Shown: in pieces, positions 13,435-60,992 of the stretch | Numbering within the stretch: the stretch's first letter is position 1 | How the letters are laid out: each line of letters opens with the position of its first letter | Source: Parietichytrium sp. I65-24A | Taxonomy: Eukaryota > Sar > Bigyra > Thraustochytrida > Thraustochytriidae | Length of the DNA stretch: 64,000 bases | Assembly: GCA_012862575.1 (NCBI GenBank) | Contig: BLSF01000099.1 | Coordinates: forward strand, 36,568-100,567 | Reading direction: 5' to 3' | Notes under the pieces: generated by a model | What the model saw: the letters and a program-made list of their open reading frames with translations, nothing else | The model's database searches: none | What the model was told of the DNA's origin: nothing | Program-made: the position numbers and the translations under genes

Positions 13435-15483
13435 CTTCCCGCCACAACTCTCTATTCACCCGGCTATATCTCTACTCCCAAAGCTCCTCGTCTGTCCTGA
13501 CGTTGTCGTATGTCGAACGACAGCTGCTTCCACCTCTTCCGGGTCCAATTTCCTCCACGTCCGTCGATTGATGTCGATGTTGAAGCTCAATGCCAATGTC
13601 AATGCCAGGGTTTTCGGTCTTCCTCACGTCTGTCTGTCTTTGTCTGTCTGTGCTCCCGTCTTCCTTGCCCACGGCTTCCTATCGGGTAGTACGGGTAATT
13701 GTACGTGTAGTGACACTGACAGTGAGTACACTGCACTCTCCCTCGTTCGCCTTTGTTCTCCCTCGCCACACCTTACATAGCACACCACCTACCACACCTC
13801 CGGAAAAGATAGATCCTGGGCCTGTGCCTACTACGCCTGTGCCTGTGTCTTTTGCCCTCCCGATTGGCGTTGGGGATCTGCCGCTCAGCGTGACGTTGGC
13901 GGTGAGGGACCAGTGATGTTGACGATCGACGATTGACGATTATTATTCACAGTCAGTAGTTGGTAAATTTGCATTCTTTTTTTGGTCAAAGCTGTCAAAG
14001 CGGTCTGAGCGCACTCTTTGCCGAAGTAGGAGTCCTTACACGTTTTTCCCAGCAAGTCTTGGTTCGACTCGAGGTTTACCGGCACTTCTACTCATAGCAG
14101 TATTAGGCGGGAGAACATCATTTGTCGCGGCTAGTGATGGCTAGTGTGCAATCGCAAGACGCTAGCCTGAACTCGCTACTGGTTCGGTATGGCTGAGGCT
14201 ATGCAGGATCTCCAAGCATATCTTCTGGCCTTTGCTAGGGGTAGTTCTTACGTCCGGAGGGACTCCTCGAAATCCCTCCTAGTTTTACCATTTTACAACT
14301 AAGCCTATCTAGAAACTCTACTCCCTGCTAGTGAGAAGGGCCTCCTCAGCTCGCTCGACCTACTGCTCTATTACCCGTATCAGTAGATAGATAGGAAGAA
14401 TAGGAAGTGAAGGAATAGTGGCTTTAGCATGTGGACAAAGGGGGCTACTAGTGTGCGAGTGGTGTGCGCCTGGTATTGCCAAGTTCAATGAGTGCAATGC
14501 ATTGACAGTGATCGACTGTGAAGGCAGGTCGCGTCATGCCATTGACTTCGTCGTGCAATGCTACTCTCCTGCCCACCCCCACCCTGCATGAGAGCAGTGT
14601 TGCGTTTTCCTGCGGAGGTGTAACCTGTTCAGCGAATTAATTTTCTTGAAATCGAAATCAAAATCAAAATCGAAAACGGGGTCGCTTTCGAGAGCCCGAG
14701 AAGCTTTGATACACGGACAAAGCAAGAGCCTTAAATATCGAATATTTGCGTAACCGAAATGAGTGCTGAGTACGACAAAGTTGCATCGCCACGAATCGGA
14801 AAAGCGTTCAGTTCACAGTTTTCTTGGTCTTGGTCAGCCGCCAGCGTTTCTCCAGAATTCGGGAACTCCACTCACCTTTGGGAGCCTGCACAAAAACAAG
14901 AGGGAACTCGAGGTGACGGGGACGAAAGAAGCATTGAAGATGGAGCCCCTGAGAATCTTCGAAGACATATACAACTGAACTCAAAGCAGTTCATCTCGTT
15001 GGATTGATCAAGTTACGTATGCGAGAAGTGCGGGAAAATCCTTAGACGAGCTGGATATCCACCTCTCCAGCTATGTCAAATGGCTTGTCATGCAGAGAGG
15101 TAAAGACTTTCAGAGCTCATACTTCATATATCTGTCTGAAATGGGCTACAACTTGTGCCAAAAAAAATGGCATGGAAATTTAGATGCTCTTCTTCAAAGC
15201 ATCACAACTAGCACAGAAAAATGATGGTGGAAACAGGGGGTGGCGGGCCGAGAGCCATGGACGACCCTGATTTCCTCAGAGTATCGGTACCATTACCGGT
15301 CATGAAAGGGAGGCCAATGAATAGGTCAATCGAATAAATAGTTTACGAATTGATGATTCAGAGCACAGTAATGACTTGGAAACAGTTGGCAGATACAGGG
15401 ACGGGGGGCAGCAGAAGAAAGGACACATACGTGTACTTGTAAGACGCAATCGATGAGACAGGATGAGGTCCTCGCTACAGAGT
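13435..15483. other. Intergenic region, no gene seen
   Basis: This lies upstream of the malic enzyme gene and downstream of kinase 1. It holds copies of the TGACAGTG/CACAGTCA motif (13718, 13948, 14503) and an AAATC-rich run near 14648-14680. Short frames such as 14759-15007 show nothing recognisable. Confidence 0.6.
13715..13729 (-). promoter_or_regulatory. Near-palindromic motif copy (15 of 17 positions)
   Basis: The plus strand reads ACTGACAGTGAGTAC, a variant of GTACTSACWGTSAGTAC that lacks only the first two bases. It starts 281 bp upstream of the malic enzyme ATG. Function is inferred from recurrence and position only. Confidence 0.45.
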
Positions 15484-20596: not shown

Positions 20597-20613
20597 GTAC
20601 TCACAGTCAGTAC
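20597..20613 (-). promoter_or_regulatory. 17-bp near-palindrome GTACTGACTGTGAGTAC
   Basis: The plus strand reads GTACTCACAGTCAGTAC. This is the exact reverse complement of the copy at 37323-37339. It starts 281 bp upstream of the kinase 2 ATG and reads GTACTGACTGTGAGTAC in the sense of that gene. Confidence 0.5.
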
Positions 20614-21474
20614 CTTAACTGTTGGTTGGTTGTAGGACGGTATCAGGGCCGGTCCCGGAACTGAAAAAGTGAGAGTGATTACTTGCAAGTACGAACACTC
20701 ACCGTCAGCAGGCGACTGGAACAAGGGTAAATCCACTCGATGGCAGATCAGATCAGCGATGCAGACTTTGCCAGCCACATATATGTGTGTGTATGGCCTC
20801 CAAACTAAACGAAGAAACACTTTTGTGGGTTGAATCCTGGAGAAAGATCACCGCGGAGGGGGGGACCTTTCCCTCCCTCCTCCGGGGCCTAAACTTGATT
20901 TTGACCAAGCAAGCTCTTCGTCTCGACTTTGAGGCACTTGGACGCAGCAACTGAAAGCCAGGGATCATCTCGCTTTTTTCGCGCGCCGAGAATCGCGCGA
21001 TCATCTCGCAAGCAGATGCTATCGCAGGAACACGATCGACCTCACAAATTCTCAGGTCTCTGACGGCGTTCGTGTCGTGGGGCCAAGCTCCCGTGCAAGG
21101 CCCTACAATAACTAGTACGTGTACTCTCTTGACGACTGCCATGAATACTTTTTTATCACCCCAGCTGCTCCTCGCAACAAAATTTCCGGTGGGATAGAAC
21201 TGATAGAACGCGTTTCAAGTTCTCCCCTTCCCGCCGGTCACACACACTCCGCGTCTCCTTACGGCAGAGCTACTCCACTGCGCTAGCATGACCATTTCTG
21301 ACCACAGCGACCACAGTTCCTCCTCATCCCTTGCTTGGCAATACACTCGAGTGCTGCTACTAAACTATGGCCTCGTCCACCTCGTTTCGCACTCACGGGC
21401 TTGGCCATGGCCCCGACCTTTCACACCTTCTTCGCCTTCTTGTCTTCTTTGTATTCTTTCTCTTCTTTGTCTAC

Positions 21475-21496
21475 AGAGAGAGAGAGAGAGAGAGGG
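21475..21496. repeat. (AG)n microsatellite
   Basis: About ten AG units in non-coding sequence, inside a purine-rich plus strand. Confidence 0.9.
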
Positions 21497-22880
21497 AAAT
21501 GGAGAGAGGGATGGACAGACTGCGACTGACAGTGGAACCAAAATGCAGACCGAGACAGAGAAAGAGAGAGAGATGCACAGAGAAAAGAGGAACAAAAAAG
21601 TGCCGGCGCTGGTAGAGTACTACTATGTTGCTGGTATTGGAACCTGCTCGCCCACGTGCGAATGTACCTAAACTCTACCATCACCGGTTCCACCGAAGGT
21701 AGTAGAGCGTGGGTAGGAGCCTTGATGTGGACTGGCTAATGCCAATCGAGTTTCGGAGGGTAGCGCATTTCGCTATTGCACGGATAAGACAATTTGAGAA
21801 GGCGGATTAAGATGGCTTCTGCCTTTCCTTCTCACTCCTGCCTCCTGCCTCCTGCTTCCCACTCCTGATTCGCTTGCTTCTAGCTTGTTGCTCTTGAAAC
21901 GGGATGTCTCTGGGCCACGGCGCTGCTGGACGGGCTTGGGGCGAATGCATATTTCTGTGCCACATTGGCGCGCGACTTTATGGGACAATCTTGATATGTC
22001 ATTCATGATAAAGTGCACGGGTTCTGTACTCTGTCTAGCTAGTGCGGGTACTGAGGTCTGAGCACTCGAGAAAACGAAATCAGCACATCGGCACACATCT
22101 CGCTTTGCTTTTGCATCTTTCTTTCATGAGACTGTGCACTCTAGACACAGATTCTACTTTTTTAATCTTTCACGCGATCAAAAAAGTCACGAGCTCGGCC
22201 TCTTGCGAAGAGCGTTTCGAGACCCAAGGAGCTTGTAAATTGATCGGGCGTTTCGGAGTTGATTCTTTGGACAGAAAAAGTGGTCATTTGCTGGACAATT
22301 ACAAGATATTTGCAAGACGAATTGCACCTCAGAGAACGTCCGTCTTGCGACCCTCGTATTGCAGAACGCAGAATAAGTTTTCAGAATTCACACGTCGTCA
22401 GAACAGTTCTGTTCTTAACATGATCTTCCATACTCTATCTTACTCCCATCATCTCCCATCTCGCCATTCCGAGAAAACGCACCCTTAGTAGTAGAGTAGC
22501 GGTACCTACTGTCCGATGGAACTGATGGAACTAGTAGCTAGAGTGGAGAAATCGTTTCAGGGTGAGAGGACTTAGGGGCCCCGCTAAGAACCCTCGGGGT
22601 TACGGGATCCGGGAGGGTCTCACAACATCCCACACACAGTTTGTCTCGTGTGTGATTTTCCATTTCCTTGAATGACTTTGACCTGGTTGCAACTGCTTGC
22701 AACTGCTGAGAGGAAGGCGATTGTCGGTCGGCAGGGTGAGAGATGGCGAGAGTGGCAGTAGCAGCCATAGCAGCCAAGCCTTCAATTGTCCTTCGCTCGC
22801 TGCCAATCGCTTCCACAGTCAATGCACCTTTGCCGTCCAACGCAGCAACGGAAGGCAATCTTCGGATGGCCATCTCTTGC

Positions 22881-22922
22881 GATCGATCCATCGATCCATC
22901 GATCCACCCATCGATCCATCCC
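22881..22922. repeat. GATC/CATC tetranucleotide repeat
   Basis: Repeating GATCGATCCATC words, slightly degenerate. Confidence 0.85.
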
Positions 22923-23157
22923 TTTGTGAAAGTGCCAGTGGGAAGCATTGATCGACTGTCAGTTCTTGTTTCTTTTGTTAGGTTTAATTTAATTTTTTCA
23001 AAATTAGAATTTGACTTGATCTTGCTTGATTGATGTTGAGAGAAAGTAAAAGAAATGACTGTGAGGAGTGTCAGGACTGTGAGTGCGCAAGCAGCATTGC
23101 ATTGTGCACCACGACGCCCTGGCCAGGGTTTGCAGCCGCAGTCGCAGTGCCAGTGTA

Positions 23158-23184
23158 AGTCGCAGTCGCAGTCGCAGTCGCAGC
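23158..23184. repeat. AGTCGC hexanucleotide repeat x4
   Basis: Four exact AGTCGC units followed by AGC, with related cagtgccagtg words just upstream. Confidence 0.85.
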
Positions 23185-24477
23185 TATTATTTAAACAGCG
23201 ATAAGCTAAGTTGAGCTTGCAAATTCCGAATGTTCTGACAACAAATTCTGTTCTGATACTGTGAATTTCGGATCCTGTTCTGAATTCTGCAAATGCTCAA
23301 CGCTCACTACTAGCACTGAGCATGCTGCAAACGTTTGTCATCAATTGCCAACAGATGCACGATACAGAGCTGCTGTTCACATCATCTCACATCAACCCGA
23401 GCTTGAACCGGCTGGAGTGCGGCCGGTCAGCACTACAGTCCGGCCTCAAGACGAACTACCAGGACTTACTCAAGCCATCGGTCGACCGGCAAGGTCTCGT
23501 TCCAGCCTCGGCGCGGGGAACCTTCCTGCAGACACTGAGGAGCGTAGGTTCCCCGGCTGCCGATGCCTCTGGAAGAATTGAACTGACTGACAGTGAAAGA
23601 GTGTCAAGTTCCAGTTTCCTGCAGACGGACGTACAAGGTACTGAGTACGTGCTCGGCTTTCTTCATTCTTCACAATTCACAACTCACAATTCACTTGTGA
23701 ATGGTTGATTTTGAACAAATTAAAACGGAGTAACCTTAAATTAATCGTCGCGCCTGCGACCCGACCTGCGGCTCCTGCGGCCAAGGTCTCGCACCTCGCG
23801 AAGACGAATTGCTCTTTATTTCCAAGATCAGGCAATAGTGGCCACTAGGTAAAGATAAAATGTCATGATTGAGGACCCCGCCTGTCTGCCTCTCTGTCTC
23901 ATCGCGCCAAAGAGAGGATGAATTACCCCGGACAGTCCCAGTTTCGCGGCTCACTCTTTCGTTCGTGCCACTATTTATTCACCTAACTGTAAATCCACGC
24001 ACGACAAGGAGGCTTCCTCTCGCTGTTTGTAACGCGAGTTTCCTTCGTCAACTTCAAAATTTTACAGAGGAGGAATGCACGGTCCGTTTTAAAGGCTGGG
24101 GCCAAGCAACTGCCTTTCCCTCGTCCTCTGCTGTTGATGCAACGATATGCAACGCGCAAAAAGGGGGGTTCTGAATGATCGTTGATTTCGCAACGTTCAA
24201 TTCCAGTCGCGGTCGAAATTTGCGAATTCGGTGGGGTGGTATGGTTCGCGCATCAGCAAATGAATCGACCTTGCCCAACCACGGTCCTTCGCTTTGCAAC
24301 GGCGGAACTACAACCTGCGATTGAAGTGATTGCAAACGTAAAACAACTGCCTCTTTTTTCGTTCTGCCTTTCTCATTCTGGCCCTCTGTCCACGCTCGTT
24401 ACTCCCGGTCATTAATTCTTTTGATTAGTATTTCTATTTTTCTATTTGCAGTTAGTGTGGAACGATTTCATTTTCAC

Positions 24478-25590
24478 TCAGCAGCAAGCGCCTTCGTAAG
24501 ACCTGGTACCTTCAAAATCCTTTGGGCAATAATCCAACTGTGCAGTACCAGCATCGCCCAGTCCGAGATTCAAAACCGTGTCTTCCTCTACATGAAAAAC
24601 AGCACGCTTGTACATGTGCGCCTCTTGGCAGTGTTCGCAAGGTCTTCGATCTAAATCAGTGCGCGGGGCACCCTGGGTGTAGTTCCCGTAGCCGCCAAAC
24701 CGCTCTACTAGGATTGGTAAACCCCAAGGAGGATACGAAACGCCGTCCAAGTCGCCGGAGGGGTAGCTCGGGACCTCCAGCCAACCGGTGATTGCATGTG
24801 CGCGCGGGCCAAACTCCGGGTACCCTGCCATCCCTGCGATGTCGTCATCCGAGCTAGATCGCTGGCGCTTGGCCTCAGTCTCGCCTTCGGGCTCGGCTGC
24901 CTTTCCCGGTACGAGCTCACCAAAGCGTTCTTTCGGAATGATACGAATAAATTGGTCTTCCAAATCAGCCCACTCCTCCATATCCATGAATACCTGAAGA
25001 AGTCCCGAGTTGCCTGTGATTGCCTGCATTCTTCGAGGCACAGTCTCGAGATCGATTTGGAACAAAAAGATCAAGCCATCAATTCTCTCCAGATCGGACG
25101 AAAAGATTGCCGGTGCGCCTCCAATGCGAGAAGAGGTGATTGGGTCACTCTCCGATGGACCTGTCTCAGAAAACTCCCAACAGAAGCTCGGCAGATGGAG
25201 TTTGTGCCACCATAAAAAGTCCTCGGTCTCCTCAAAGCCTTCGGCGGTTAGAGCCGTCGCCCATTCCTCGGCGTACTTGGCGACATCTTCGACCTGTTTT
25301 TTCTCAATCTCTGGCGTTTCGGGGATCAGGTCTGTCTCCTGGGTCCTTGATCGCAGAGACATGAGGTCCTTGAGTACCACTCCGCGTACCTGTTTGACCG
25401 CTCCACCTCCGCTCTCTGCATCCCAGTACAATTCCGCGTACTTTGACTCGCTCTCTTTGGTAAAGCGCCTCGCAAACTTGTACACCTTGATCTCCAGCTC
25501 ATCTCGAGCGTTGTTCTCAATCTCCTTGGTCAGCTCCGCGGGCAGCTTTTCGGAGACGCTCTTCGGCAGGGTCGGCTCCGAGGCGCTCAT
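24478..25590 (-). CDS. DUF1963 (YwqG-like) domain protein
   Basis: Predicted 370-aa soluble protein. ATG at 25590 is the first ATG in the frame. The N-terminal third is charged and helical. The remainder matches the DUF1963/YwqG pattern, whose biochemical role is not established: SRIGGAPAIF followed by LIFLFQIDLE (about 155-185), NSGLLQVFMDMEEW (about 195-208), an acidic Ser-rich loop, ITGWLEVPSYP, then GYGNYTQG and a conserved C-terminal LNLGLGDAGTAQLDYCPKDF. A CEHC pair (about 322) and terminal CC could bind metal, but that is only a possibility. No intron is needed. A copy of the 17-bp near-palindrome lies 323 bp upstream. Confidence 0.85.
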   Translation of the reverse strand: MSASEPTLPKSVSEKLPAELTKEIENNARDELEIKVYKFARRFTKESESKYAELYWDAESGGGAVKQVRGVVLKDLMSLRSRTQETDLIPETPEIEKKQVEDVAKYAEEWATALTAEGFEETEDFLWWHKLHLPSFCWEFSETGPSESDPITSSRIGGAPAIFSSDLERIDGLIFLFQIDLETVPRRMQAITGNSGLLQVFMDMEEWADLEDQFIRIIPKERFGELVPGKAAEPEGETEAKRQRSSSDDDIAGMAGYPEFGPRAHAITGWLEVPSYPSGDLDGVSYPPWGLPILVERFGGYGNYTQGAPRTDLDRRPCEHCQEAHMYKRAVFHVEEDTVLNLGLGDAGTAQLDYCPKDFEGTRSYEGACC

Positions 25591-26380
25591 CCTCTCTCCC
25601 CAGCTCGAGTACTCTCTCACAAGTGAATATGCTCAGTCCAGATCGACTTGGGGTTCTGCTGCTGCGCTCACCTCTTGCTCCCAACACATTCCCACACATT
25701 CCCACGCAAGCATTAATTTAAAAAGAGTGATTGAAGTTTGACATTAACCTCTGTCAGTAATTATACTAGCAAAAGATTTTCACAACGCCCACACGAATTC
25801 TGACATAGTTCCTATACGTAATAGGATGTCATCCTAGTTGCCGCTGGGTTTCTGCATCTGGCTCTCGTAAGAATATGCCAAGGCTCACTACAGAGAACAA
25901 TATGTAGAAACGGTACTCACTGTCAGTACGCCTCAAGTAGCGAGAGTCGCAGAAGCGCACACCTGGAGGGTTGCTTCGCTTAAGTTATTGAGGCATGTAG
26001 AGGTGTCCAGGTCTTGTGAGCAGACTTGAGAAATGATGTGGTGCGGACATTAACAAGCCTCGACGAACTCAGACAGCTGGTGCTGGGTTGTGATTCGACC
26101 AGCTGGAGGTGCTGGGTCGTGATTCCATGCACAGTCATCATTTTCTTTGACGTGGGCTGTGAGAGGCTGGGGCCAGACTAGTGCCGCTGTTCATCGTTGG
26201 CGAAAAGGTCTAATTTATGAAGCATTACTATCTTTTCAATGGACGTGCCTTTGAATGCCCCCTCTTTTCGCCTCAATTCCCACCACACTAGTCATGTGCT
26301 AGCAATGCATCGGCAACGGATAGGAGGGCCATTTGGGGGATGACAAAACTCACTGCCAAGACGATCAATCTCGGGGACCC
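25591..26380. other. Intergenic region, divergent genes
   Basis: The sequence between the divergent DUF1963 gene and the gene at 26381. It has the near-palindrome at 25913-25929 and a CACAGTCA at 26130. Nothing else is recognised. Confidence 0.5.
25913..25929 (-). promoter_or_regulatory. 17-bp near-palindrome GTACTGACAGTGAGTAC
   Basis: The plus strand reads GTACTCACTGTCAGTAC, differing from the kinase 2 copy only at the central base. It lies 323 bp upstream of the DUF1963 ATG, in the same orientation relative to the gene as the kinase 2 and deaminase copies. Confidence 0.5.
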
Positions 26381-26899
26381 ATGATGGCGAGCGTGAGATG
26401 GCGCCCCCATCGCCTCCCCAAGCCCCAATCCGCAGGCGCCAGGTTCAAACCCGAAACATTGGCGAACAGGATGCTGTCTCTGGACTGGGTTTCTCTTCAC
26501 TCGCAAGGAGGAGTGCGGGCTCGGAAGAGGGCGCCAGAAGATGAATGTGGCTCGCCCAAGGACTCGGTGGCATCTCCCAGCACGGAGTCGTCAGGCTCGT
26601 CGTGCAGCTTTGCGTCGCGTTTTTCCGCGGCGGATTCATTTGCCGAGAGCGTCAAGTCTCTTTCGATGCAGAGAGATGAGCCCGAGTCGCCGTGCAGGAC
26701 TCTATTTCGGAGCAAGCTGCTCGCCATGAGAAGGACCCACCAGTGGAAGGATATACCGCTGGAATTCTTCATCGACGCCCAGGTCGCAGACCACGAAGAT
26801 GATTTCTCCCCGGCTTCGCCTCAATCAACTGGCTCATCTGCTGCTCCTGCAGATCCACTGATCGCCATCTTTCCGTGTCTGGAGTGGCTCTTCAGCTGA
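26381..26899 (+). CDS. Hypothetical protein, Ser-rich
   Basis: A frame of 172 codons from ATG 26381, with a second ATG directly following. I do not recognise it. The product starts MMASVRWRPHR, has a basic part (about 10-60), a Ser-rich stretch (about 60-85) and a more ordered part with WKDIPLEFFIDAQ (about 123-135), then a hydrophobic end, PLIAIFPCLEWLFS. There is no signal peptide or membrane segment. Codon composition resembles the neighbouring genes more than the intergenic frames do, and the reading frame outlasts chance expectation only modestly. It could be a real small gene or a long chance frame. Confidence 0.45.
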   Translation: MMASVRWRPHRLPKPQSAGARFKPETLANRMLSLDWVSLHSQGGVRARKRAPEDECGSPKDSVASPSTESSGSSCSFASRFSAADSFAESVKSLSMQRDEPESPCRTLFRSKLLAMRRTHQWKDIPLEFFIDAQVADHEDDFSPASPQSTGSSAAPADPLIAIFPCLEWLFS

Positions 26900-27369
26900 T
26901 GCTTCGGACACCCATCTTTAGAAGGTGGGTATTCCAAACGAGCTCTTCAATGCGGGGCGCTCGGCATTGAAGCTGTGCTCTGGGCATTGAAGCTGTGCTC
27001 TTGGCTCGTGCGCAGAGACGCAGAGACGCATCTCCCGAAACTATTTATGCCTATTGGATCTCGCGTCCCGAGGTCTTTCCCGTTAGTTTAGCAAATCCTT
27101 CGTTCGCGGATGGAACATAAACAAAGTGAACACTCGAGTTTCATTTCTACTTTATCGCGTGACCGTTCAACTAAAGTCGGTTGCCAAAAAATTGATCCGG
27201 TAGCAGACCTCAGACTTACCCTCAAGTCTAATGCCCCCCTAGCGAGCGAGTGGTTTCAAAGTTGCAAGGGATATGCGAGCTCTTGAGCACTCTTCGCGCA
27301 CACGCAAAGGGCGCGAGCTTCCTGACGTGAGAAACGACGAGCAAGTATTGCAGAGGCGAGGAGAAAAGG
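26900..27369. other. Intergenic spacer
   Basis: About 470 bp between two plus-strand genes. It has a short direct repeat of gggcattgaagctgtgctc (about 26963-27002) and no other feature. Confidence 0.5.
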
Positions 27370-27837
27370 ATGGCAAAGTCAGCCCTGGCACTGCTCGTGC
27401 TTGCGCTCGTGCTAATCCAAGGCTGCCATGGCGCCCTCAACTCGAGGAGTCACCACACCTACCTTTGCGACGAGCCGGGCAAGCTGGACGGAATTCGAAT
27501 CAAGCGATCGATGGACATGTCTCTGTGCAAGCAGAGGTACGGAAAGAAGCTCTATTGCTTTCATTGCAAATGCGAATGGGTCAAGTATTGGGAGGCAGCG
27601 AGTGCTTGCTTCAGCGACGACACCGACCTTCACGCACGGCTACTGGAAGACCAACTCACTTGGCAGACAGATTATTCCATGTACTGTCTTGGACTTGATG
27701 AAGCCTCTCCGTCCGAGGAACCGCTCCAACTGTCCTTGGACGAGACCAGCGATTACTATTGCAGCCCCGCTGCGAAGCTCCAGCGCGCCGCCTTCCTTGT
27801 CGTTGTGACTGCTCTAGCTCATTTGATTGCTGGCTGA
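27370..27837 (+). CDS. Secreted small Cys-rich protein, possibly GPI-anchored
   Basis: A 155-aa product from an ATG in good context (AAAAGGATGG). Residues 1-22 form a clear signal peptide (hydrophobic ALALLVLALVLI, then CHGA). The mature part has eight cysteines, including a YCFHCKCEW cluster (about 58-65). The last 17 residues are hydrophobic (AAFLVVVTALAHLIAG) after a small-residue site (CSPAAK), the usual layout of a GPI-anchor signal. No family is recognised. The next gene downstream, in the opposite orientation, encodes a stalked surface protein, so both may belong to the cell surface, but a functional link is only inference. Confidence 0.75.
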   Translation: MAKSALALLVLALVLIQGCHGALNSRSHHTYLCDEPGKLDGIRIKRSMDMSLCKQRYGKKLYCFHCKCEWVKYWEAASACFSDDTDLHARLLEDQLTWQTDYSMYCLGLDEASPSEEPLQLSLDETSDYYCSPAAKLQRAAFLVVVTALAHLIAG

Positions 27838-28210
27838 GGAGAAAAGGAGGGAAAGTGATCCTGATCCCCATGGAATTTGTATCAGCAGATAACTAACTGC
27901 AATCGAAAAGTCTCAAAAGCCTCTGTGCGTGTGTGTTATGTATATATAGAATAGAAGAACTCGCATTATGACAAGAGTTTGCTCAGCCTGAGAGCACCCG
28001 ACCGTTCAAGCGGGGTAGGGGTACATCTCTTTCAGCTGAACAAACCCACAGAAATAAGAACTGGTAGAAAAAATTCGGACTTTATCTTGCCGATAACGCC
28101 AGTGCAAACGCAAAGCAAAGCCCATAGTTGCAAAGGCGCGGGGTGTGTGTGTGTTGGGGGGTGGGGGTGCAGTGAGCAATTAAAATTCTCTAAAAACAAG
28201 TCACATACAT
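27838..28210. other. Intergenic spacer between convergent genes
   Basis: Contains a GT/GGGG-rich patch (28141-28170) and nothing recognisable as a gene. Confidence 0.5.
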
Positions 28211-29956
28211 TTACACTCTGGCGACAAAGCCTTGTTCCTGCTCAAAATGGGCGACATGAGGGTCGAAAGAGCTCTGCCGATTCTTTACGCGGCGTTGCGA
28301 CAGCGGCTCGGCCTCATTCTGATTCAATCTTTCCCCAGAGCCAGCAGTTCCAGTGTACCTTCCGTCTGTTTCGAAAGAGTTGTAGAAATCCTGCTCGTCA
28401 TCGTCATCAGCCTCATCGTGAAACAAGAACCGCTCCCGTTCATACTGAAGCTTGCGCTTGTTCCGCTTTCGCCTGTTCAGGAACACCAAGAAGAAAACAA
28501 TCATGACGCAACTGAGCAACAACAAGATCAAAGCAAGAGACAGATTCTGCACTTGTTTCTCGTCTTCTTGGGTCTCCTCGGTACTGGCACTCTTGCCAAG
28601 GGTTGGCGTAAGCGTCGTTGGCTCCAGCGTCGGTGCAAAAGTCGGCGAAGTGGATGGACTGTGAGACGGTGCCTTCGTAGGAAACCCTGTGGGTCCTGGC
28701 GTCGGAGACTTGGAAGGGTGTGCGGAGGTTGTTGGGCCGCGTGTCGGCAAAGGCACCGGAGGCTCGGTGTCATCTGAATCTGGGTCCCTGAGGACAAAAA
28801 TTTGAGCGCTGTCGTAGCGAGAGTCGCATGTGTACAGTCTCACAAAAGCACCAGGCTCGTAATCCGCATTATTCCCTGTCGACGGTGTGGTCGAGCCTTG
28901 GTCGCAGAGTACCCGATCTTTGAAGGGTGTGCCGTTACATGCCATCACGGTGATACAATACTCCACTCCGTCAGAAGTCTCCTCCAGGCGAATTTTAAAG
29001 CCGTTTGTCGCCGATTTCCGGGTCCACCTTACCTTGTTCAAGCCGTTTTCCGATGCAAGAGCCTCGGTCTTGTCCCAAAGCGTAAGAGTGTCCTTTTGCA
29101 CTGCGCTCGGAAAGTGGTTGTGCGAATAGTAGAGCACAACATCGTTGTTATTTGGTGAGAGGAATCCATCAGCCGACAGAGTCCACATCATCTTTTGAAC
29201 ATGGAGGTCACTCTTTGCGGCATTCTTCACGTAGGATTTTGTCTGCAGCCACAAGCCCGGCACGGCCACAAAGTTGCTATCGCGTGTGGAAAGCCCAAGA
29301 CCAAGCATATCCTCCCCGTCGTTGTTGCTCCATCTCAGCAGCACCAAAAGCTCGGTGAACTGGTCCGCATTTTCCGGGGAAGTAGTAGGGGCATCGGTGA
29401 TCACAATCGTTCTGGTTGGATCCTCAAATACCCACTGAGCCAGGAGAGAGTCCGCTGTGGTAAAGTCAGTTGGACAAGCTTTGAATTTCACGCCGTTCTC
29501 CGAGGATAGCTCATCCGAATTCGTTTCGCTCGTTTCAATGAACACGCATTCCCCTTCAAAAGTCTTGAGGACGAATGGTTCGCCCTCCCTCAGCTCGTCA
29601 GTTCCGTCCACCGGTGCCGCGTACCACTTAAACATGTCGTCCGCCGCATCACAGGTATTCACGTCTATAACGTCGGTCTCCGGATGGAACGCACACAGTG
29701 AAGTATTCACATGCTGCATCGCAAGTGAGTGGTCGTCCGGGCTGTAAGAAATTGTCCAACCGTAATTCTCCATATCACCAAGCAGTCCTGTCCAGATACG
29801 GTTTGTGAGTCCATCGCGTCCAAGCTCTGGATTGTACTGCAAGCACCACTGTGTGTTTTTTTCCGAGCACAGCGTCACATTCTCAAACTCGCGCACAACT
29901 CCGTGCACGCCCACGCTGCTCAACGCCGCCACGTAAACTGCCACCGCCGCTCGCAT
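28211..29956 (-). CDS. Type I membrane protein with Pro/Thr/Ser stalk
   Basis: Predicted 581 aa. ATG 29956 is the first in the frame and starts a signal peptide (AAVAVYVAALSSVGVHG). The ectodomain (about 20-390) contains paired Cys and repeated W/Q/LC patterns, for example SLCAFHPETDVIDVNTCD and MFKWYA. These recall beta-trefoil lectin folds, but the match is weak. A mucin-like stalk (about 399-455) repeats PT/SP words (PTFAPTLEPTTLTPTLG). One transmembrane helix (about 471-494, LALILLLLSCVMIVFFLVFL) is followed by NRRKRNKRK and a cytoplasmic tail with an acidic cluster (DEADDDDEQD). The topology suggests a surface receptor or adhesin. PT-rich stalks of this kind are common in stramenopile surface proteins. 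Ligand is unknown. Confidence 0.85.
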   Translation of the reverse strand: MRAAVAVYVAALSSVGVHGVVREFENVTLCSEKNTQWCLQYNPELGRDGLTNRIWTGLLGDMENYGWTISYSPDDHSLAMQHVNTSLCAFHPETDVIDVNTCDAADDMFKWYAAPVDGTDELREGEPFVLKTFEGECVFIETSETNSDELSSENGVKFKACPTDFTTADSLLAQWVFEDPTRTIVITDAPTTSPENADQFTELLVLLRWSNNDGEDMLGLGLSTRDSNFVAVPGLWLQTKSYVKNAAKSDLHVQKMMWTLSADGFLSPNNNDVVLYYSHNHFPSAVQKDTLTLWDKTEALASENGLNKVRWTRKSATNGFKIRLEETSDGVEYCITVMACNGTPFKDRVLCDQGSTTPSTGNNADYEPGAFVRLYTCDSRYDSAQIFVLRDPDSDDTEPPVPLPTRGPTTSAHPSKSPTPGPTGFPTKAPSHSPSTSPTFAPTLEPTTLTPTLGKSASTEETQEDEKQVQNLSLALILLLLSCVMIVFFLVFLNRRKRNKRKLQYERERFLFHDEADDDDEQDFYNSFETDGRYTGTAGSGERLNQNEAEPLSQRRVKNRQSSFDPHVAHFEQEQGFVARV

Positions 29957-31338
29957 TCTCACCGTCGCGCCGCGTCCAACATGCAAATCCCGCACGCCGT
30001 TGGTCTCCCGACTACTTTACTTCCACAACGACCTTCCCAACCTTTCCGCAACAACCACCTATCTGCTTTTCAATACGTCTTTTGCCACCTTTCCAAGTCA
30101 CCAATACAACGCAGACCTCAATCTCATATACTTTGCCCTATCGATCGAGTTGTCCTTGCCACACTGCTCCTCAGCTTGCTCAACCGCACAACTCGAACAG
30201 AACACAAAAAACTGAAAACTGAAAACTGAAAAGCGAATGAATGAAAACTGAACACAACACAGTCCTTCCATCTCCTCTCTTCTCCTCTCTCCCTCTCTTC
30301 CGTGGCCAACAGCCAGACTTCATCTGCTACCGTTTACGCTGACTACCCTTAAGACCCCGGAAAGCGAACTCCGGGGGAAAGCCTACATTGCGCGAAACTC
30401 CTGACTCTCCGGTACGGTCTCCCACGAGCGAACGATGGTTAGGGATGGTTAAGGGAAAGGGATATAGTTTGCGGTGGTGTGGCCCTAGTGGACGTGGGAC
30501 GGGGGTAGTGTGCCGTAGAGAGCTGCTGGAAGATGGCTCCCCGGCTTCTTATCGGCTGTTGATGGTAAGAGGTGTGTAAGAGGGGAGTAGGACGTCATGA
30601 GGACGGCTTCGTGACGCGGGCTGAGAGCCGATTGCGTATTCGAAGGTATTCGAATACCGCGAATACTCAACCTTCATATCTTTGAATACATCTTCGTAGA
30701 AACATTTCATCTCGCAATACTACGAATAAACGTCTAAGAGCGATAGAAGACCAAGCAAAGATATTTTGTTGCATAGCCGTCTACTAGAGACTTGGTATGC
30801 TATGTAAGCAGACACAAATTATTCCAGTTTTACACGAGTAGTAGCCCCCATCTACCTGGTACTGTAGACCTACAACAACAGGAAGAGCGTACTCTTCTAG
30901 GCTACTGAGTACTGATCACTGCAACTACTGCAACGTTGAATAGAGTATATATTAGTGAAAATTGTACACCTGCAGAAGTGAGCTACTAGACTATAGAGTC
31001 GCTACTAGCCCCTAGTCACTTGTGATAGGTGGCAGTGTGGCGACCATCCAACATCCAACTATATCAAGAACAAGAGATAGTAAACAACATGAGCAGAAGA
31101 AGCACAAGAAGAACAAAAACAAGAGCAAGAACAAGAACAGGAGGCAAAGGAGAGCACTTTGTGCGCGAGAAAGTTGCAAGCGTGCATCTGCATCGACGCC
31201 GAATAGATCAATAGATCAAAAGGAGAGCAAAAGGACAGCAAGCTGGAACTCAGGGGCAAGGCATTCTCTGCGCTGCGAAGAGCGGTGAGCACGGTTACGA
31301 CGAGCAGCGGGTTCCAGAGTTGTAAAGCTGCAAGAACG
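29957..31338. other. Divergent intergenic region
   Basis: Separates the stalked membrane protein (minus) from the dipeptidyl peptidase (plus). The minus-strand side is rich in CA/CT, with an aaaactgaaaactgaaaactgaa run at 30208-30230. No convincing core promoter element and no gene could be assigned. Confidence 0.55.
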
Positions 31339-33820
31339 ATGGACGACACGTTGGTGGCGATGAAACCACAGCCCTGCGTGGCGCCCCCGACGCAGATTGC
31401 GTTCAGCCCATGCAAAAAGTATCTGACGTACTTGCAAGCCGAGTCGGCCGCCGATCTCCTCACCAAGCACCTCTACGTCATGGATATCTCGGACCCGAAA
31501 AATCCTGGAAAACCATACAAGGCCTGGGACCCGTCGGACGGGGCTGTCGAGACGGAGTCGTCGTTGTCGTTGGAGGAAAAGCTTCGCCGCGAACGCAGCA
31601 GGCAGATGAACGTCGGGATCACTCAATACACTTGGTCGGTTTTCGCTTCGCGCATGCTTATCCCCCTTAATGGAAACATCTTCATCAAAGAAGCGTCCAC
31701 CATGTCCAACCCGTCTGCCATTCGCAAAGTATTTGACAAGTCCTCGACTCAGGTGGGAGACGATGCTACTGGAGGAGCCATCGATGCGACCCTCTCTCCA
31801 GACGGCAAATTCGTCGGGTTTGTGAGAGACTCGGAGCTGTACATGCTCAACGTCGAAAAGGATGCTGCCACCCCAATCCGCTTGACGGTCGATGCCCGCG
31901 GCACTGGCCGCACAAACGGTTTGGCTGACTACCTGGCTCAAGAAGAGATGGACCGCTACAAGGGTTTTTGGTGGTCCTCGTGCGGGAATTACATGGCTTT
32001 CGAGCAGGTCGATGAGTCGCACATCCCCCAATATCGCATCATGCATCAAGGAAACGACGCGGTCGGCTCCTCTGCACAGGAGGACCACCGCTATCCGTTC
32101 GCCGGTCAGGAAAACCCTCGTGTGACACTCGCCGTCCTCGATGTGACCAAGAAGAACCCCTCCGAGCACATCAAGTGGTTGGACTTGCTCTTTCCAGACA
32201 TTCCGTCCTTTGAGTCCGACATTTACCTCGCTCGTGTAGACTGGTTCCCGGATTCGTCGCTCGCGGTGCAGATCGAGAACCGTGAGCAGAGCGAGCTCCT
32301 CCTTGTGCGCTACGATATTCAAACCGGTCAGCGCTCAATTTTGGTTCATGAAAAGTCCAAGGTATGGATCAATCTGAATGACCTGCTCTTGTCATTCACC
32401 TCTGATGAAGCCGAGGCTGCCTTTTTCCGGAATAAGTCCTCTGACGCAATGGAGGTTTCCGGTGCGCACCAAAACTTCTTTTTCACTTGGGGCAGTGAAG
32501 TATCTGGCTTCATGCACGTCTACCTCTACTACTTTAACCGCGAAACTGGCGAGGTCACAAAGGTGCGACAGCTAACTGAAGGCGAGTGGATGGTAAACTC
32601 TATCACCAACGTTTCGATCGACAAGGCTCTGCTCTTTTTCTCTGCTACTGCTGAAAGTCCTTTGGAGCGCCACAATTACGTCTGCAAAATGTGGGGGGAC
32701 GACTCCACTGATGTGCCGGAGATGTTTAAGATCACCAAGGAGAAGGGAACGAACGCTCTTTTGGTGGACTCGGATTGCGAGCTGGCGGTGGTGTCCCATA
32801 ACAGCGTGTTGTCGCCACCAGGAGCCACGCTCTGCAAATTGAGCTGTGATATTCCGAACGGTGTCGTCGGGGTGGAAAATGTGAGCGTCATCCATGATAG
32901 TCACAAGAGCCCGCTCATCGCAGACCAGCTCAATCATCTCAAGGAGTATTTGCCGGCCCCAGAGTTTGTCTCCTTCCCTTCGAAAGATGGCAAGGAAACC
33001 CTCTATGGCGCCATCCAGCATCCAGACCCTGAAAAGTTTGGCCGAGGGCCATACCCCTTGATTGTGGCCGTCTATGGAGGTCCCCATGTGCAAAGGGTAT
33101 TGGATACTTGGTTGACTACTAGTGACATGCGCGTCCAACGCTTTGCAGCCAGCGGCTACGCTGTTCTCAAGGTAGACAACCGTGGATCTTCCGGTCGCGG
33201 ATTACAGTTCGAAGGATACATCAAGCATAGCATGGGCACGGTCGAAATTGACGACCAAGCCACTGGAGTGGAGTACCTCGTGTCAAAAGGAATCGCGGAC
33301 CCAAAGCGGGTCGGAATTTACGGCTGGTCCTACGGAGGATACATGTCTCTCATGTGCTTATTTCAAAGACCGGACGTCTTTCATGTTGCAGTTTCTGGCG
33401 CCCCTGTCACAAATTGGTGAGTTATCGAGTGGACCGAGAATTTGACCGGTTTTCTATTTTTGTTCTAACCTTCGGCGTCGCATCACATCATTGCGCAGGG
33501 ACGGCTATGACACACACTACACGGAGAGGTACATGGGCATGCCCCAGACAAACCCACAAGGCTATGAGAGAGGCTCGGTTATGTCATACGTCGACAAGCT
33601 CGAGGGCAAGTTGATGCTCGTCCACGGTCTCATCGATGAAAACGTACACTTTCGTCATACCGCGCGGCTTATCAACTCTTTGATTGCTGCGCGAAAGACT
33701 TATGATCTTTTGCTCTTCCCAGAGGAGCGCCATTCACCACGGCGTTTGCAAGATCGCATTTACATGGAACAGCGGATCAAGGAATACTTTGACCAATTTC
33801 TGCGCGACCGTAAAGTGTAA
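31339..33820 (+). CDS. Dipeptidyl peptidase, S9B family, DPP8/9-like (2 exons)
   Basis: Serine peptidase expected to remove N-terminal Xaa-Pro dipeptides. Exon 1 is 31339-33416. An 82-bp intron (GTGAGT...GCGCAG) follows, then exon 2 at 33499-33820, giving 799 aa. The N-terminal part is the DPPIV-type propeller with [16 protein letters not shown], whose Glu202-Glu203 pair binds the substrate amino terminus. The C-terminal alpha/beta hydrolase carries [12 protein letters not shown] (Ser664), LIDENVHF (Asp739) and PEERHS (His771). The segments [17 protein letters not shown] and [10 protein letters not shown] resemble the cytosolic DPP8/9 branch more than DPP4. There is no signal peptide or membrane anchor, which agrees with a cytosolic enzyme. 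ATG 31339 was chosen as the first ATG in the open frame. Confidence 0.96.
33417..33498 (+). other. Spliceosomal intron of dipeptidyl peptidase gene
   Basis: Donor ACAAATTG-GTGAGT, acceptor ATTGCGCAG-GGACGG. Splicing splits a Trp codon (TG/G) and restores [17 protein letters not shown], as expected for the family. Length is 82 bp. Confidence 0.95.
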
Positions 33821-34056
33821 TTGGCGCTCGTGACTCTGTCTGCCGACATACACTGTGCAGTTGTTTCAAGTGCTGCATACACTGCACTACTCAGTGGGCT
33901 TTGCATGGCGGCTCAATTCTTGAAGTCTTTTGGCCGCACCACAGCAAACATGAAAGTCAAGTTCCCTTTTTTGAGAAGAGTACGTATTTATCATTCATTT
34001 CCAGCGATTGTCCAGCTTTTGTTCTTTGACTTGTTAATTTAAAAAGTATTTTCCAG

Positions 34057-34953
34057 TCAAAGAAGGGTGCTTATGATCAAGTACGTGATGACTGCGAAGA
34101 TCAACTCCATGAGGAGAAAAAGAACCGTGCGGCAGAGGCGCAACACGTAGTTGCCCGCCAATTGGGTGTAGCTTTTGATGTGGCCCTTTATGCACGGCTC
34201 TTGGCTATCTGGTTCTTCTCCTTGCCACCTATCGAAGCGCATCACATGAACACCGTGCGCCTTGGCAAACGCTGCAATACCTTCCGAAAGGGTGTTGTTC
34301 TCGTCTCGCAATCTCCACAAGCTGAGGCTTGGGTTGACGTACTTGAGCTTGACAGAAAGCCTCTCGATTAGGGCATGCCAAAACGCTTGCGGGACATTCT
34401 GACCCCTAAGAACCAGCGTTTCCAAGTCTTCACGAGTGACATGAATGATCGGCCGTCTCGCTCTTTCGCTTCCTGAAGAGCTGACGTCCTCGTCGGTTCC
34501 GGACCTCTCGCCATCGGACAAACTTTGGTCATCTCCTTGTTGGAAGTCCTCGTTATCAAAGCATTCAGAAACGCTGCCTTGAGAGGACCAGCTCTTTCTC
34601 TCTTCTTCCTCGCCCTCTTGAATCTCAGAGTCGCCATCCGCATCACCACTGCAATTTGACCATCCGCATTCACTTTCGGGCCCATCCTGGCTGCAATCCA
34701 TGAACGCGAAGAGCCTAGGCGCTGTCCCCGTCGCACACTCCGCAATCCGAACCAGGGATTTAGGGAGTATCTCGCCACATTGAGCCAACGACAATCTGGC
34801 CGCTGACTTGAGCCCCATTTCTCGAGCCACTGCCCCGTACAACTCCCAGCCGTTGGCATCTGGTCCCACTTGCACCCGAATCACACGCCCCTGCCACGTT
34901 ACCACCTCCAACATGCGCAAGTTACCGCACATTTCATGCTCTCGCGTGCTCAT
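34057..34953 (-). CDS. Ubiquitin-like domain protein with C-terminal tail anchor
   Basis: Predicted 298 aa from ATG 34953 (further in-frame ATGs at 34932 and 34914). Upstream the frame runs into a tandem repeat without an ATG. Residues about 14-75 (MLEVVTWQGRVIRVQV... ARLSLAQCGEILP) have the spacing of a ubiquitin-like beta-grasp. A long acidic, Ser-rich linker (about 85-170) follows, then a helical part (HVTREDLETLVLRG, about 180-250). The last 30 residues form one hydrophobic helix (RTVLFLLMELIFAVITYLIISTLL) ending at the stop. The order UBL, linker, C-terminal anchor resembles membrane-anchored UBL proteins of the ER or mitochondrial surface (HERP-like layout), but no specific orthologue is recognised. 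It is convergent with the peptidase gene, 236 bp apart. Confidence 0.72.
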   Translation of the reverse strand: MSTREHEMCGNLRMLEVVTWQGRVIRVQVGPDANGWELYGAVAREMGLKSAARLSLAQCGEILPKSLVRIAECATGTAPRLFAFMDCSQDGPESECGWSNCSGDADGDSEIQEGEEEERKSWSSQGSVSECFDNEDFQQGDDQSLSDGERSGTDEDVSSSGSERARRPIIHVTREDLETLVLRGQNVPQAFWHALIERLSVKLKYVNPSLSLWRLRDENNTLSEGIAAFAKAHGVHVMRFDRWQGEEPDSQEPCIKGHIKSYTQLAGNYVLRLCRTVLFLLMELIFAVITYLIISTLL

Positions 34954-35018
34954 TCCTTCACCGCACTTTGCTTCTCTTCCACGTTGGGCAACTGCTGCCT
35001 CAAAGGCAACAGAGCGAC

Positions 35019-35051
35019 CTTCCCACTTCCCACTTCCCACTTCCCACTTCC
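35019..35051. repeat. CTTCCCA heptanucleotide repeat x4
   Basis: Four exact CTTCCCA units plus a partial fifth, close upstream of the UBL-like gene. Confidence 0.9.
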
Positions 35052-35056
35052 TGAAT

Positions 35057-35088
35057 CCGGTTCTCCGGTTCTCCGGTTCTCCGGTTCT
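35057..35088. repeat. CCGGTTCT octanucleotide repeat x4
   Basis: Four exact units directly beside the CTTCCCA repeat. Confidence 0.9.
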
Positions 35089-35500
35089 TCGGCCACTGGG
35101 TTCTTCGGTTCCTGGCCAGTTTTTCTCTCTGAATCGAGTTCTTCGGCGTTGCGGGGATGAAAATTCGTTTGTATCCGTTTGTGTCCGATGCTCTTTTCCG
35201 TGGAAATTTGGAAAGTCTTAAATTGAGCGGTGCCTGAGACAATGGTAGTGTTTGCGTTGAAGTCCCTGTGCTGTTCGCGAGCTACGGTCGCTGAGTTTTG
35301 AGGGTCACCTTCCCTCCCGCCAGAGCTGGGACAGGTAAAAGTACGAAACCTAAACGGCAGAACCAGCTTACGGAGAAGTGGTAAAGTGGCAAAAGATGGT
35401 TCATATTGAGGAGAGCAACATGGTTATTTTAGTACATGTCTATGTTATCGAAGCGGAATTCCAAGTAAATCAATATATTTCACGGTCAGGATGATATTTT

Positions 35501-36832
35501 TTAAGACACAGGAGCGCCTGCAGAGCGATTTTTTGGCAGTGCAGAGCTCGACATAATGACCTTGAAGAAGTCGCAGTTGGAATCTGGTAGCAAAGGAAGG
35601 CCATCTTCGTAAGAATTGAGTAATAAGACCTTTTGCAAGTGCGACTTGATCAGGTCAACCTCTTCTTGGACACTCTCGGCGACGCTGTGTCCATGCAACG
35701 CAAATGAGGTGTCCTCAACCGGAGCAGGATTACCGCCCCCCCTGCACCACACGCGGGTGGTTTCGCAAGAAAGGTTCATGTTGGTCAAGACTTCCACGTG
35801 CTTGAGCACATGCTCTACACTTTGAAAGAATTCCTCCTGTACCTGAGATCCGACACTTTGCCACATCTCGCTGTATACGCGATGATTTTCATCCGAAGAC
35901 AAGCCGGTAGCTGAGTCTCTCGATTGAAGCGGCATGCCCAAGTCTTCGTCCCCCTTTTGAGCTTGGGGAGCAGACTTGCGAAGCGCAAGCTCTACGGCAG
36001 CACGCAGCTCACTCGCTTGCAGCGAAGGATGTCCTTGCCAGGCTATTCTGCGAAAACGATCAAGTACAAAGCACGTGGGAAGAGAGCTTATGCAGTATTT
36101 CTGCACGACTTCCGACTCCCAAACTTTTGCCCCCGCCCACAAATGATGGATCTCTGCAAACATTGAGTTCGTAGCCAGCTCTCTAAACCCTGCCGATCCA
36201 GCGTCGACCGCAACCGCGATGGCTTCAAGAGAAGATTGCTGATTCTCCGACGTGTGACCATGACCATACGAATGATACACGTTCGAAGGCTCGACTTTCG
36301 ACTTGTGCTTTTCAGAGGACTTACCGTTGCGATACTCTTTTACCAGTTCATTTAAACGGAATATGGCATCCAAGCAAGCACTGTTCACGGCTGAGTGAAA
36401 AAGCAAAATGGAGGCTTTGCCCTTTCGCTGCAGCGGGAATAGCCTCTCCCCACGCTCGGACTGCCCCGTCTCGCTATTTCCCCCTTTACTCTCAACGTCC
36501 GCCAGTGAGCCTTCCACAGCTGCGAGCCCGCCGCAATCCGGCGCCTTTTCGCCGGACAGCAGCTGCGCGCGAAGTTCCCCAGTATCAGCATCAGAGACGA
36601 TTTCCCGCGCTTGCGCAACGACTCGGCGAAGCTGCTCGCCATTTCTGCATGAGCCATCTATACACAACTGCCTGACAATGTCCAGCCCGCTCCGCGACGA
36701 CACTGATCTGCACTCCTCTTCACGCACTCGCACGTGTTCTTGCAAGCCTTCTTTCTCAATCATCTCCAGAAGCAATTCGAGCGCTAAAGACCTCTCTGCC
36801 TCGTTCAGCTGGCGCCACAACCCCCGCGCCAT
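35501..36832 (-). CDS. Thioredoxin-fold protein lacking CxxC
   Basis: Predicted 443 aa from ATG 36832, the first ATG in the frame. The N-terminal part (about 1-140) is helical and charged. Residues about 140-290 follow a TlpA/thioredoxin pattern: beta strand ASILLFHSAVN, helix CLDAIFRLNELVKEY, strand AIAVAVDAG, then VVQKYCISSLPTCFVLDRFRRIAWQGHP with the cis-Pro (LPT) of the fold. The position of the usual CxxC reads SAVNSAC, with a single Cys, so ordinary disulfide exchange is unlikely. A His/Ser-rich loop (VYHSYGHGHTSEN) is inserted between strands. The C-terminal 150 residues are helical and unrecognised. Function unknown. Divergent from the deaminase gene. Confidence 0.68.
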   Translation of the reverse strand: MARGLWRQLNEAERSLALELLLEMIEKEGLQEHVRVREEECRSVSSRSGLDIVRQLCIDGSCRNGEQLRRVVAQAREIVSDADTGELRAQLLSGEKAPDCGGLAAVEGSLADVESKGGNSETGQSERGERLFPLQRKGKASILLFHSAVNSACLDAIFRLNELVKEYRNGKSSEKHKSKVEPSNVYHSYGHGHTSENQQSSLEAIAVAVDAGSAGFRELATNSMFAEIHHLWAGAKVWESEVVQKYCISSLPTCFVLDRFRRIAWQGHPSLQASELRAAVELALRKSAPQAQKGDEDLGMPLQSRDSATGLSSDENHRVYSEMWQSVGSQVQEEFFQSVEHVLKHVEVLTNMNLSCETTRVWCRGGGNPAPVEDTSFALHGHSVAESVQEEVDLIKSHLQKVLLLNSYEDGLPLLPDSNCDFFKVIMSSSALPKNRSAGAPVS

Positions 36833-37090
36833 TGTAATCGAAGCTGCACTTTTTTCCGCCTCTTCCGCTTCAGGAACCTGTGCGCTGATCTCGGAGGCAA
36901 GCGCATGAGGAGAGCCGTAGGCCCACAGCTCCCGCGACCAAGTACGCTCCTCTCCCAGCTCCCAACGCAACAAGCGTGTGGCGACCGACGCTCATATGCA
37001 CTTCCAACTTGAACAAGACGTGTCACAACGTTCAAAATAGAACAACTTTTTTCCAATAGAAGAGGGAGTAGCCAGTACCCAACCTCTGGT

Positions 37091-37370
37091 AAAGTGCACA
37101 GACACACTTCATACACTTCATCTCACAATAAGACTCGCAATGTCAGGAATGATTGTGAATGACTGTGAACGAAAAGTGTTTGTTCGACTCATGTGCACAC
37201 GACCTTTGACCATCTTTGACCACGGAGACAAAGTGCACAGACACACTTCATACACTTCATCTCACTATACTCACAATGTCAGAAATGATTGTGAATGAAT
37301 GAAGTGTTTGTTCGACTCACGTGTACTGACTGTGAGTACACGACCTTTGACCATCTTTGACCTCGGAGAC
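37091..37370. repeat. Tandem duplication of about 140 bp upstream of deaminase gene
   Basis: Copy A (37091-37229) and copy B (37230-37370) both start aaagtgcacagacacactt and end in cggagac. The copies differ by substitutions and a few indels. Two of these involve the motif core: copy A has TGACTGTGAA (37160) where copy B lacks it, and copy B has GTACTGACTGTGAGTAC (37323) where copy A shows only a short join. Confidence 0.9.
37323..37339 (+). promoter_or_regulatory. 17-bp near-palindrome GTACTGACTGTGAGTAC
   Basis: Full copy of the recurrent near-palindrome, ending 160 bp before the deaminase ATG. The outer arms GTACT and AGTAC are perfectly complementary. The kinase 2 upstream region carries the exact reverse complement. 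Confidence 0.5.
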
Positions 37371-37498
37371 ACCAATGAAAGACACCAATGAAAGATACGA
37401 GTACTGTCACGGTGTGCTACTCTCCGGCAAAAGCTGGTTGCAGCTGTAAAAAGTGAAGTCGACTCGCAGTAAGAAGAGCAAGGCGCTGGGAGAACGTG

Positions 37499-52740: not shown

Positions 52741-52972
52741 TCACACAAAATTCGGATCGGCGTTTCAAAAGCGTTTCAACCTTGATGACGCTGACAGTGT
52801 GGTACCGGTAACTCATTTGGTTCGGTAAAAAAGGCATCACAATGAAAGAAAGGGGCCGAGCCAAATGCAGATGCAAGTGCAAAGGCAAAGATAGGCAAAG
52901 ATAAGCTTACAAACATAAAAAAAAGATGTCGAGCCAGTCTTTGATTTGCGCCGCGTCTGGGCACCGCACCTG

Positions 52973-52987
52973 TGCTCACTGTCAGCA
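52973..52987. promoter_or_regulatory. Variant near-palindrome TGCTCACTGTCAGCA
   Basis: The same core as the 17-mer, but the outer arms read TGCT and AGCA instead of TACT and AGTA. Both arms changed while staying complementary. No gene starts nearby. Confidence 0.35.
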
Positions 52988-60842: not shown

Positions 60843-60977
60843 ATGGGTTGGCCGCCGGCTTGTGCCAGGTGAGTACTCTAGACGCAGAATGGTTGGTGGC
60901 GTCGAGAACATTAGCGAGATTCTACTGGCTTCCGAGTTTGGGTTGGGTTGGTTTACAGGCACTCGGGCTACTCTGGC

Positions 60978-60992
60978 ACTGACTGTGAGTAC
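60978..60992 (+). promoter_or_regulatory. Near-palindromic motif copy (15 of 17 positions)
   Basis: ACTGACTGTGAGTAC, identical to positions 3-17 of the deaminase copy. It lies 354 bp upstream of the BRCT start, in the opposite orientation to that gene. Confidence 0.35.

Follow-up and report, generated by a model that had tools for sequence, protein, structure and literature searches.

A recurrent 17-bp near-palindrome in Parietichytrium as the probable excision footprint of a GTAC-inserting DNA transposon

The 17-mer in the window

The DNA analysed here, referred to as the window, is a stretch of 64,000 nucleotides from Parietichytrium sp. I65-24A (contig BLSF01000099.1, positions 36,568 to 100,567 of the forward strand). 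It carries a recurrent 17-bp near-palindrome in which a 9-bp core is flanked on both sides by GTAC, and the five best copies all lie upstream of genes (Table 1). The three full copies reported in the initial annotation were confirmed, and each of them consists of one GTACTCAC arm and one GTACTGAC arm. We consider it highly probable that each 17-mer is the excision footprint, or scar, of a cut-and-paste DNA transposon that inserts at GTAC.

When up to three mismatches to the 17-mer are allowed, the window holds 8 matches, compared with a mean of 0.26 and a maximum of 2 in shuffled sequence. The shorter and variant copies listed previously are likewise real, although as decayed relatives with one to three mismatches. 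Rfam and tRNA scans of the whole window yielded no match.

Table 1. Scars and associated features, with positions numbered from the first nucleotide of the window
Feature	Position	Strand	Remarks
Short scar-like GTAC-TA-GTAC	9577..9586		
Decayed scar GTACTCACTGTCAGTGT	13713..13729	-	2 mismatches; upstream of malic enzyme gene on - strand
Intact scar GTAC-TCACAGTCA-GTAC	20597..20613	+	upstream of protein kinase gene on - strand (kinase domain match)
Short scar GTAC-TCA-GTAC	23638..23648	-	microhomology type
Intact scar GTAC-TCACTGTCA-GTAC	25913..25929	+	upstream of DUF1963 gene on - strand
First tandem copy, without scar	37094..37232	+	13-bp gap between 37191 and 37192; site reads TGTGCACAC; from alignment
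Second tandem copy, 13 extra bp at scar	37233..37375	+	from alignment
Intact scar, GTACTCACAGTCAGTAC on - strand	37323..37339	-	within second tandem copy; upstream of deaminase gene on + strand
More decayed scar	52972..52988	+	3 mismatches; 9-bp core TCACTGTCA preserved, GTAC changed on both sides (GTGC..GCAG)
Decayed scar GTACTCACAGTCAGTGC	60976..60992	-	1 mismatch; further GTAC 3 bp beyond; upstream of BRCT gene on - strand

Genome-wide abundance and asymmetry

The genome searched comprises 42,540,916 bases (42.5 Mb) in 172 contigs, including the window, and its introns and gene content are those of a eukaryote. Exact matches to GTACTCACWGTCAGTAC number 385 (208 on one strand and 177 on the other), and the S/W pattern with at most one mismatch is found at 933 places, compared with 1 for the reversed-pattern control. 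In contrast, true palindromes with any centre base occur 9 times (3 for GTACTGACNGTCAGTAC and 6 for GTACTCACNGTGAGTAC), and the motif is therefore a near-palindrome that carries one fixed asymmetry. The identical 17-mer also appears in four stretches of the genome_contigs set and two of the viral_contigs set.

Motif-finding software would presumably call this 17-mer a very strong regulatory palindrome, and the initial annotation had proposed either a transcription factor site for a dimer or a short mobile palindrome. The strong enrichment across the genome is what a binding site would show. However, a homodimer should favour perfect palindromes, and because these are almost absent the dimer proposal is not supported. 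The remaining version of this explanation, in which a protein (a transcription factor or a general promoter factor) reads two different half-sites, GTACTCAC and GTACTGAC, on either side of a central A/T, we regard as improbable in view of the evidence presented in the following sections. The proposal of a mobile sequence fares better, at least in spirit, given the presence and absence of 13 bp described below.

Position relative to genes

Coding sequences were called with a simple hexamer-type method that was trained on 46 long open frames and returns single exons only, such that its calls are approximate. None of 46 exact sites lies within called coding sequence, where 37% of random positions fall. 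The nearest feature is a 5' end for 29 sites and a 3' end for 9, and the other 8 are in loci with no called gene; the corresponding fractions for random positions are 0.317, 0.143 and 0.174. Avoidance of coding sequence is consistent with a transcription factor site, as is the placement of the five best window copies upstream of genes, but selection against 13-bp insertions, which shift the reading frame, would also produce such avoidance.

The excess of sites at 5' ends is not significant beyond intergenic placement (29 versus 9 at 3' ends, p 0.38), and neither is the orientation bias among the 5' sites (17 opposite to the gene and 12 in the same direction, binomial p 0.46). These 5' sites lie between 12 and 2391 bp from the closest coding segment called. 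The 46 exact sites therefore show no preferred distance, side or orientation of the sort that characterizes a promoter element, which argues against a transcription factor site.

Two positional claims made earlier for the window can be judged against this sample. The copies were said to read the same way relative to their genes, and this holds for the three exact copies, in which the C-form lies opposite to the gene strand, but not for the decayed copies at 13713 and 60976, which lie on the same strand. As a general rule it fails in the wider sample. The 281-bp distance to the start codon that two copies were reported to share looks coincidental, because the distances at 5' ends span such a broad range.

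A tandem duplication with and without the scar

The scar at 37323 lies in a tandem duplication whose copies are 81% identical by blastn (Table 1). When the copies are aligned, the first (copy A) is exactly 13 bp short at the scar, where it reads GACTCATGTGCACACGACC compared with GACTCACGTGTACTGACTGTGAGTACACGACC in the second (copy B). The 13 bp correspond to a single GTAC and the nonamer TCACWGTCA, as might result from a 4-bp target duplication and a 9-bp residue of an element. This 13-bp difference is a single case in which a target site duplication and putative element-end pieces can be compared with an apparently empty site. Such presence and absence is not a behaviour of transcription factor sites, and it weighs further against that explanation.

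A model for scar formation

In the model that we favour, the element would insert at GTAC and would duplicate either GTAC or the central TA only; in the latter case G and C on either side would be strongly preferred. Excision would leave about five element bases on each flank, which are predicted to be TCACA for the left end and TGTCA for the right. Ends that overlap by their last base would create an A:A mismatch, and its repair in either direction would give GTAC-TCAC(A/T)GTCA-GTAC. An alternation of A and T that arises from a central A:A mismatch is known from mariner footprints. A join without overlap would produce GTAC-TCACATGTCA-GTAC, trimming would produce half scars, and joining through the common TCA would produce GTAC-TCA-GTAC. 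The C/G asymmetry of the motif would then be the single base that distinguishes the two element ends (TCACA versus TGACA, read inward). Since every scar holds two GTACs, each would offer new targets, and chains and nests of scars would be expected. What the sequences show directly is the one 13-bp presence and absence, the rules for the centre letters, the make-up of inserts from end pieces, the chains and the lack of coding copies among the sampled sites; the element itself, its nature as a DDE transposon, its superfamily, its cutting pattern and the selection against coding insertions are what we infer.

Centre letters, half scars and chains

Among the first 100 of the 385 full scars listed, the centre is A in 57 and T in 43. 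The genome also contains 15 scars with a two-base centre (GTACTCACNNGTCAGTAC), and in 13 of these the centre is AT, which matches the prediction for a blunt join. This preference is another feature that a transcription factor site would not be expected to have. The centre-letter rules illustrate how sequence alone might separate excision scars from binding sites.

Half scars (GTACTSACWGTAC), for which the model predicts A at the centre, are found at 124 places genome-wide, compared with 16 for the reversed control. The first 100 listed comprise 58 CACA, 23 GACA, 13 CACT and 6 GACT. After tandem arrays are collapsed, 88 of these 100 remain with an A:T ratio at the centre of 69:19, which differs from the 57:43 of full scars (Fisher p 0.002). 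The 9-mer GTACTCACA forms tandem arrays of about 4 to 7 copies at three loci (G000:C5:410100-410500, C3:778800-779150 and C19:571600-571900; L052, L053 and L054, respectively), where slippage may have multiplied half scars.

The spacing of neighbouring GTACs was determined in 219 kb of DNA from 34 sequences, most of which were picked for holding a site. Spacings peak at 2 (35 cases), 3 (36 cases) and 9 (56 cases). These peaks are absent from nine other 4-mers, although CTAG has one at 0 and TGCA one at 5. When full scars are set aside, 153 inserts of 0-12 bp between two GTACs remain, and each length class was compared with 2000 shuffles for composition from an exact prefix of TCACA followed by a suffix of TGTCA. 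The 3-bp inserts are TCA or TGA in 21 of 36 cases (shuffled mean 3.99, maximum 11). End-piece composition was also found in 9 of 71 inserts of 4-12 bp (shuffled mean 0.69, maximum 4) and in 21 of 45 inserts of 1-2 bp (shuffled mean 12.45, maximum 20). For inserts of 3-12 bp, the proportion is 30 of 107 with GTAC compared with 7 of 687 with ten control 4-mers. Other joins include TCA+TGTCA (L086 and L100) and TCACA+C+TGTCA (L089). Overlapped, blunt, half and trimmed joins are thus all represented, whereas CG inserts, C inserts and T-centred half scars are left unexplained.

Scars are also found in chains, such as GTACTCACAGTCAGTACACTCAGTACTCAGTACTCAGTACTCACAGTCAGTAC (L031), and in nests (L010). 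A further GTAC lies within 12 bp of the scar on the left of 13 of the 46 exact sites and on the right of 7, compared with a background of 3.4% per side. These chains, together with the end-piece inserts and half scars, are difficult to reconcile with a transcription factor site. At one locus (L036), a roughly 790-bp inverted repeat with 91% identity (828-1619 and 4224-4995) has two exact scars between its arms, and the sequence past the right arm is N.

The target site

TAC is preceded by A, C or T instead of G at 86 sites. Reading 33 of them showed C as the far base in 26 cases, T in 3, A in 2 and G in 2. Variation at the outer G is largely independent of that at the outer C. By arithmetic, the outer bases seem less constant than the inner ones on average, a comparison that concerns the mean and not single inner positions. 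This variation suits either duplication of TA with a flanking G/C preference or duplication of GTAC followed by later change. Bases further out have no strong consensus, and the most marked preference, for C at +2 of the right flank, is seen in 25 of 46.

Evidence against excision and the search for the element

Several observations weigh against an excision footprint. The greater apparent variability of the outer G and C relative to the inner bases would also be shown by a transcription factor site. The empty-site evidence comes from one tandem duplication, in which the empty target in copy A is GCAC, one substitution away from GTAC. Alignment of the two tandem copies needs further gaps of 2, 3 and 8 bp, and the 13-bp difference may be a slippage deletion in copy A. 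The two-base centre is AA in 2 of 15 cases, and T-centred half scars (19 of 88) are more frequent than the strict model allows, which is a partial failure of its prediction. Finally, TCACA and TGTCA ends do not explain the inserts CG (11), C (8) and TCG/CGA (4) among the 153. The arrangements GTAC-CG-GTAC and GTAC-C-GTAC (for example at L022:1218-1290 and L034:9555-9570) are possibly scars of a second GTAC-targeting element.

The results of searching for the element belong with these points. Half-sites followed by letters that are impossible in an intact scar were used as queries. Genome-wide, the half-site GTACTSACAGTW has 162 matches compared with 28 for its reversed control, GTACTSACAH has 541 compared with 299, and GTACTSACAGV has 251 compared with 84. 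The loci examined (10 for GTACTSACAGTW and short stretches numbering 40 and 20 for the other two queries) proved to be decayed scars, half scars or unique sequence. No longer terminal repeat is common to the 40 GTACTSACAH places (of 541) and the 20 GTACTSACAGV stretches (of 251 places). Two intervals of 4-5 kb with facing half-sites (C10:735500-739700 and C9:586900-592200) were rejected as candidates because their ends are unlike. Four open reading frames scanned in these intervals include one M24 peptidase and three without a Pfam family, and no transposase domain was found in them. In all, no full-length element with matching ends was found in the 60 short stretches and two intervals, which are a small part of the genome. 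A possible source considered for the surplus GTACTCACAGC half-sites was introns whose last bases are CTSACAG, and one intron, in a DPP IV gene, was inspected.

The search for transposases covered DDE_3 (IS630/Tc1-type) and no other family. It identified four open frames of 570-645 amino acids at the loci L150 (G000:C7), L149 (C68), L151 (C4) and L152 (C72), and no TCACA or TGTCA ends were recognised beside these frames within their 3-kb loci. L150 is flanked by two scar-like sequences, one decayed (at 287) and the other palindromic (at 3168-3184). Members of the L150 family carry long inverted repeats, and the two ends of a further copy lie about 0.7 kb apart (G000:C127:40394-41083). This family was rejected as the source of the scars, since the end traced from its copies is AACATTTTC rather than TCACA and lies inside the right-hand scar.

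Programmed elimination and other sources of the scars

An alternative that could account for the failure to find an element among the places examined is programmed DNA elimination, of which the internal eliminated sequences of ciliates are an example. The elements would then have no place in the assembly of the sequenced cells, and hundreds of uniform scars would be left behind. However, the scars are variable and imprecise, and the same place has been reused, which fits unregulated excision, and there is no sign here of two versions of the genome. We consider this explanation very unlikely. It is scarcely credible that short sequences were added at GTAC nuclease breaks, or that the motifs are tyrosine recombinase sites, with no transposon involved: the GTAC flanks of the core and the lack of a strong consensus further out would be compatible with either, but hundreds of occurrences of one 9-bp sequence, built from two constant end pieces, call for a constant source, and chains with 1-3 bp inserts are unlike recombinase sites.

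Relation to known elements and implications

Excision by a DNA transposon has partial parallels in known systems. Two reports describe footprints of Tc1/mariner and Stowaway elements (Sleeping Beauty and OsMar 14T32) that consist of a duplicated target and short end pieces and form mainly by non-homologous end joining (PMC7827188, PMC4561436). The likeness to the scars, which also combine a target with putative element-end pieces, is one of principle. The Sleeping Beauty and mariner transposases are reported to nick three bases inside the element (PMC7827188). By comparison, about five bases per end appear to be retained here, and the scars are not three-base footprints of that kind. The target also appears to differ, being GTAC here and in general TA in that superfamily.

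Excision of Ac/Ds (hAT) elements similarly leaves short changes, but the letters inserted in Parietichytrium are identical at 385 places, and therefore they probably come from the element. PIF/Harbinger (Tourist) elements are likewise cut-and-paste transposons with a short target site duplication, although their excision is reported to be generally precise (PMC4561436), unlike the process proposed here. Palindromic transcription factor sites resemble the scars in being near-palindromic, intergenic and abundant, and the fixed asymmetry, centre-letter rules and insertion behaviour set the scars apart.

The full-text literature was also searched, with most subscription papers outside its coverage. 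The four 17-mers were not found, one of two 13-mer cores was found in an unrelated context, and nothing obviously relevant was found on GTACTGAC or on a GTAC target site duplication together with a transposon footprint or terminal inverted repeat; this is no proof of novelty. It is conceivable, though doubtful, that a novel GTAC-targeting transposon, with a five-base end retention that the described Tc1/mariner elements lack, has moved in and out of the same intergenic GTACs so many times that an appreciable share of the promoter DNA consists of nested scars, and that scar counts and decay could serve as a clock of its activity although the sequence read lacks the element. If the excision model is correct, the genome records hundreds of transposon excisions, the scars reveal where a still unseen element inserts and with which bases it ends, and intergenic DNA grows through repeated insertion and excision.

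Additional observations

Two further repeats were noted. Neighbouring paralogous stretches at L034:150-2300 and L034:6500-8700 are about 80% identical over 1.8 kb, and by the look of their sequence they might carry genes for cysteine-rich proteins. A dispersed repeat of 31-52 bp that includes CACCTTCCGATAGGGTTTGTT is present in four of the sequences compared, namely at 53071-53122 in the window and at L001:1037-1088, L025:1046-1097 and L034:6127-6157.

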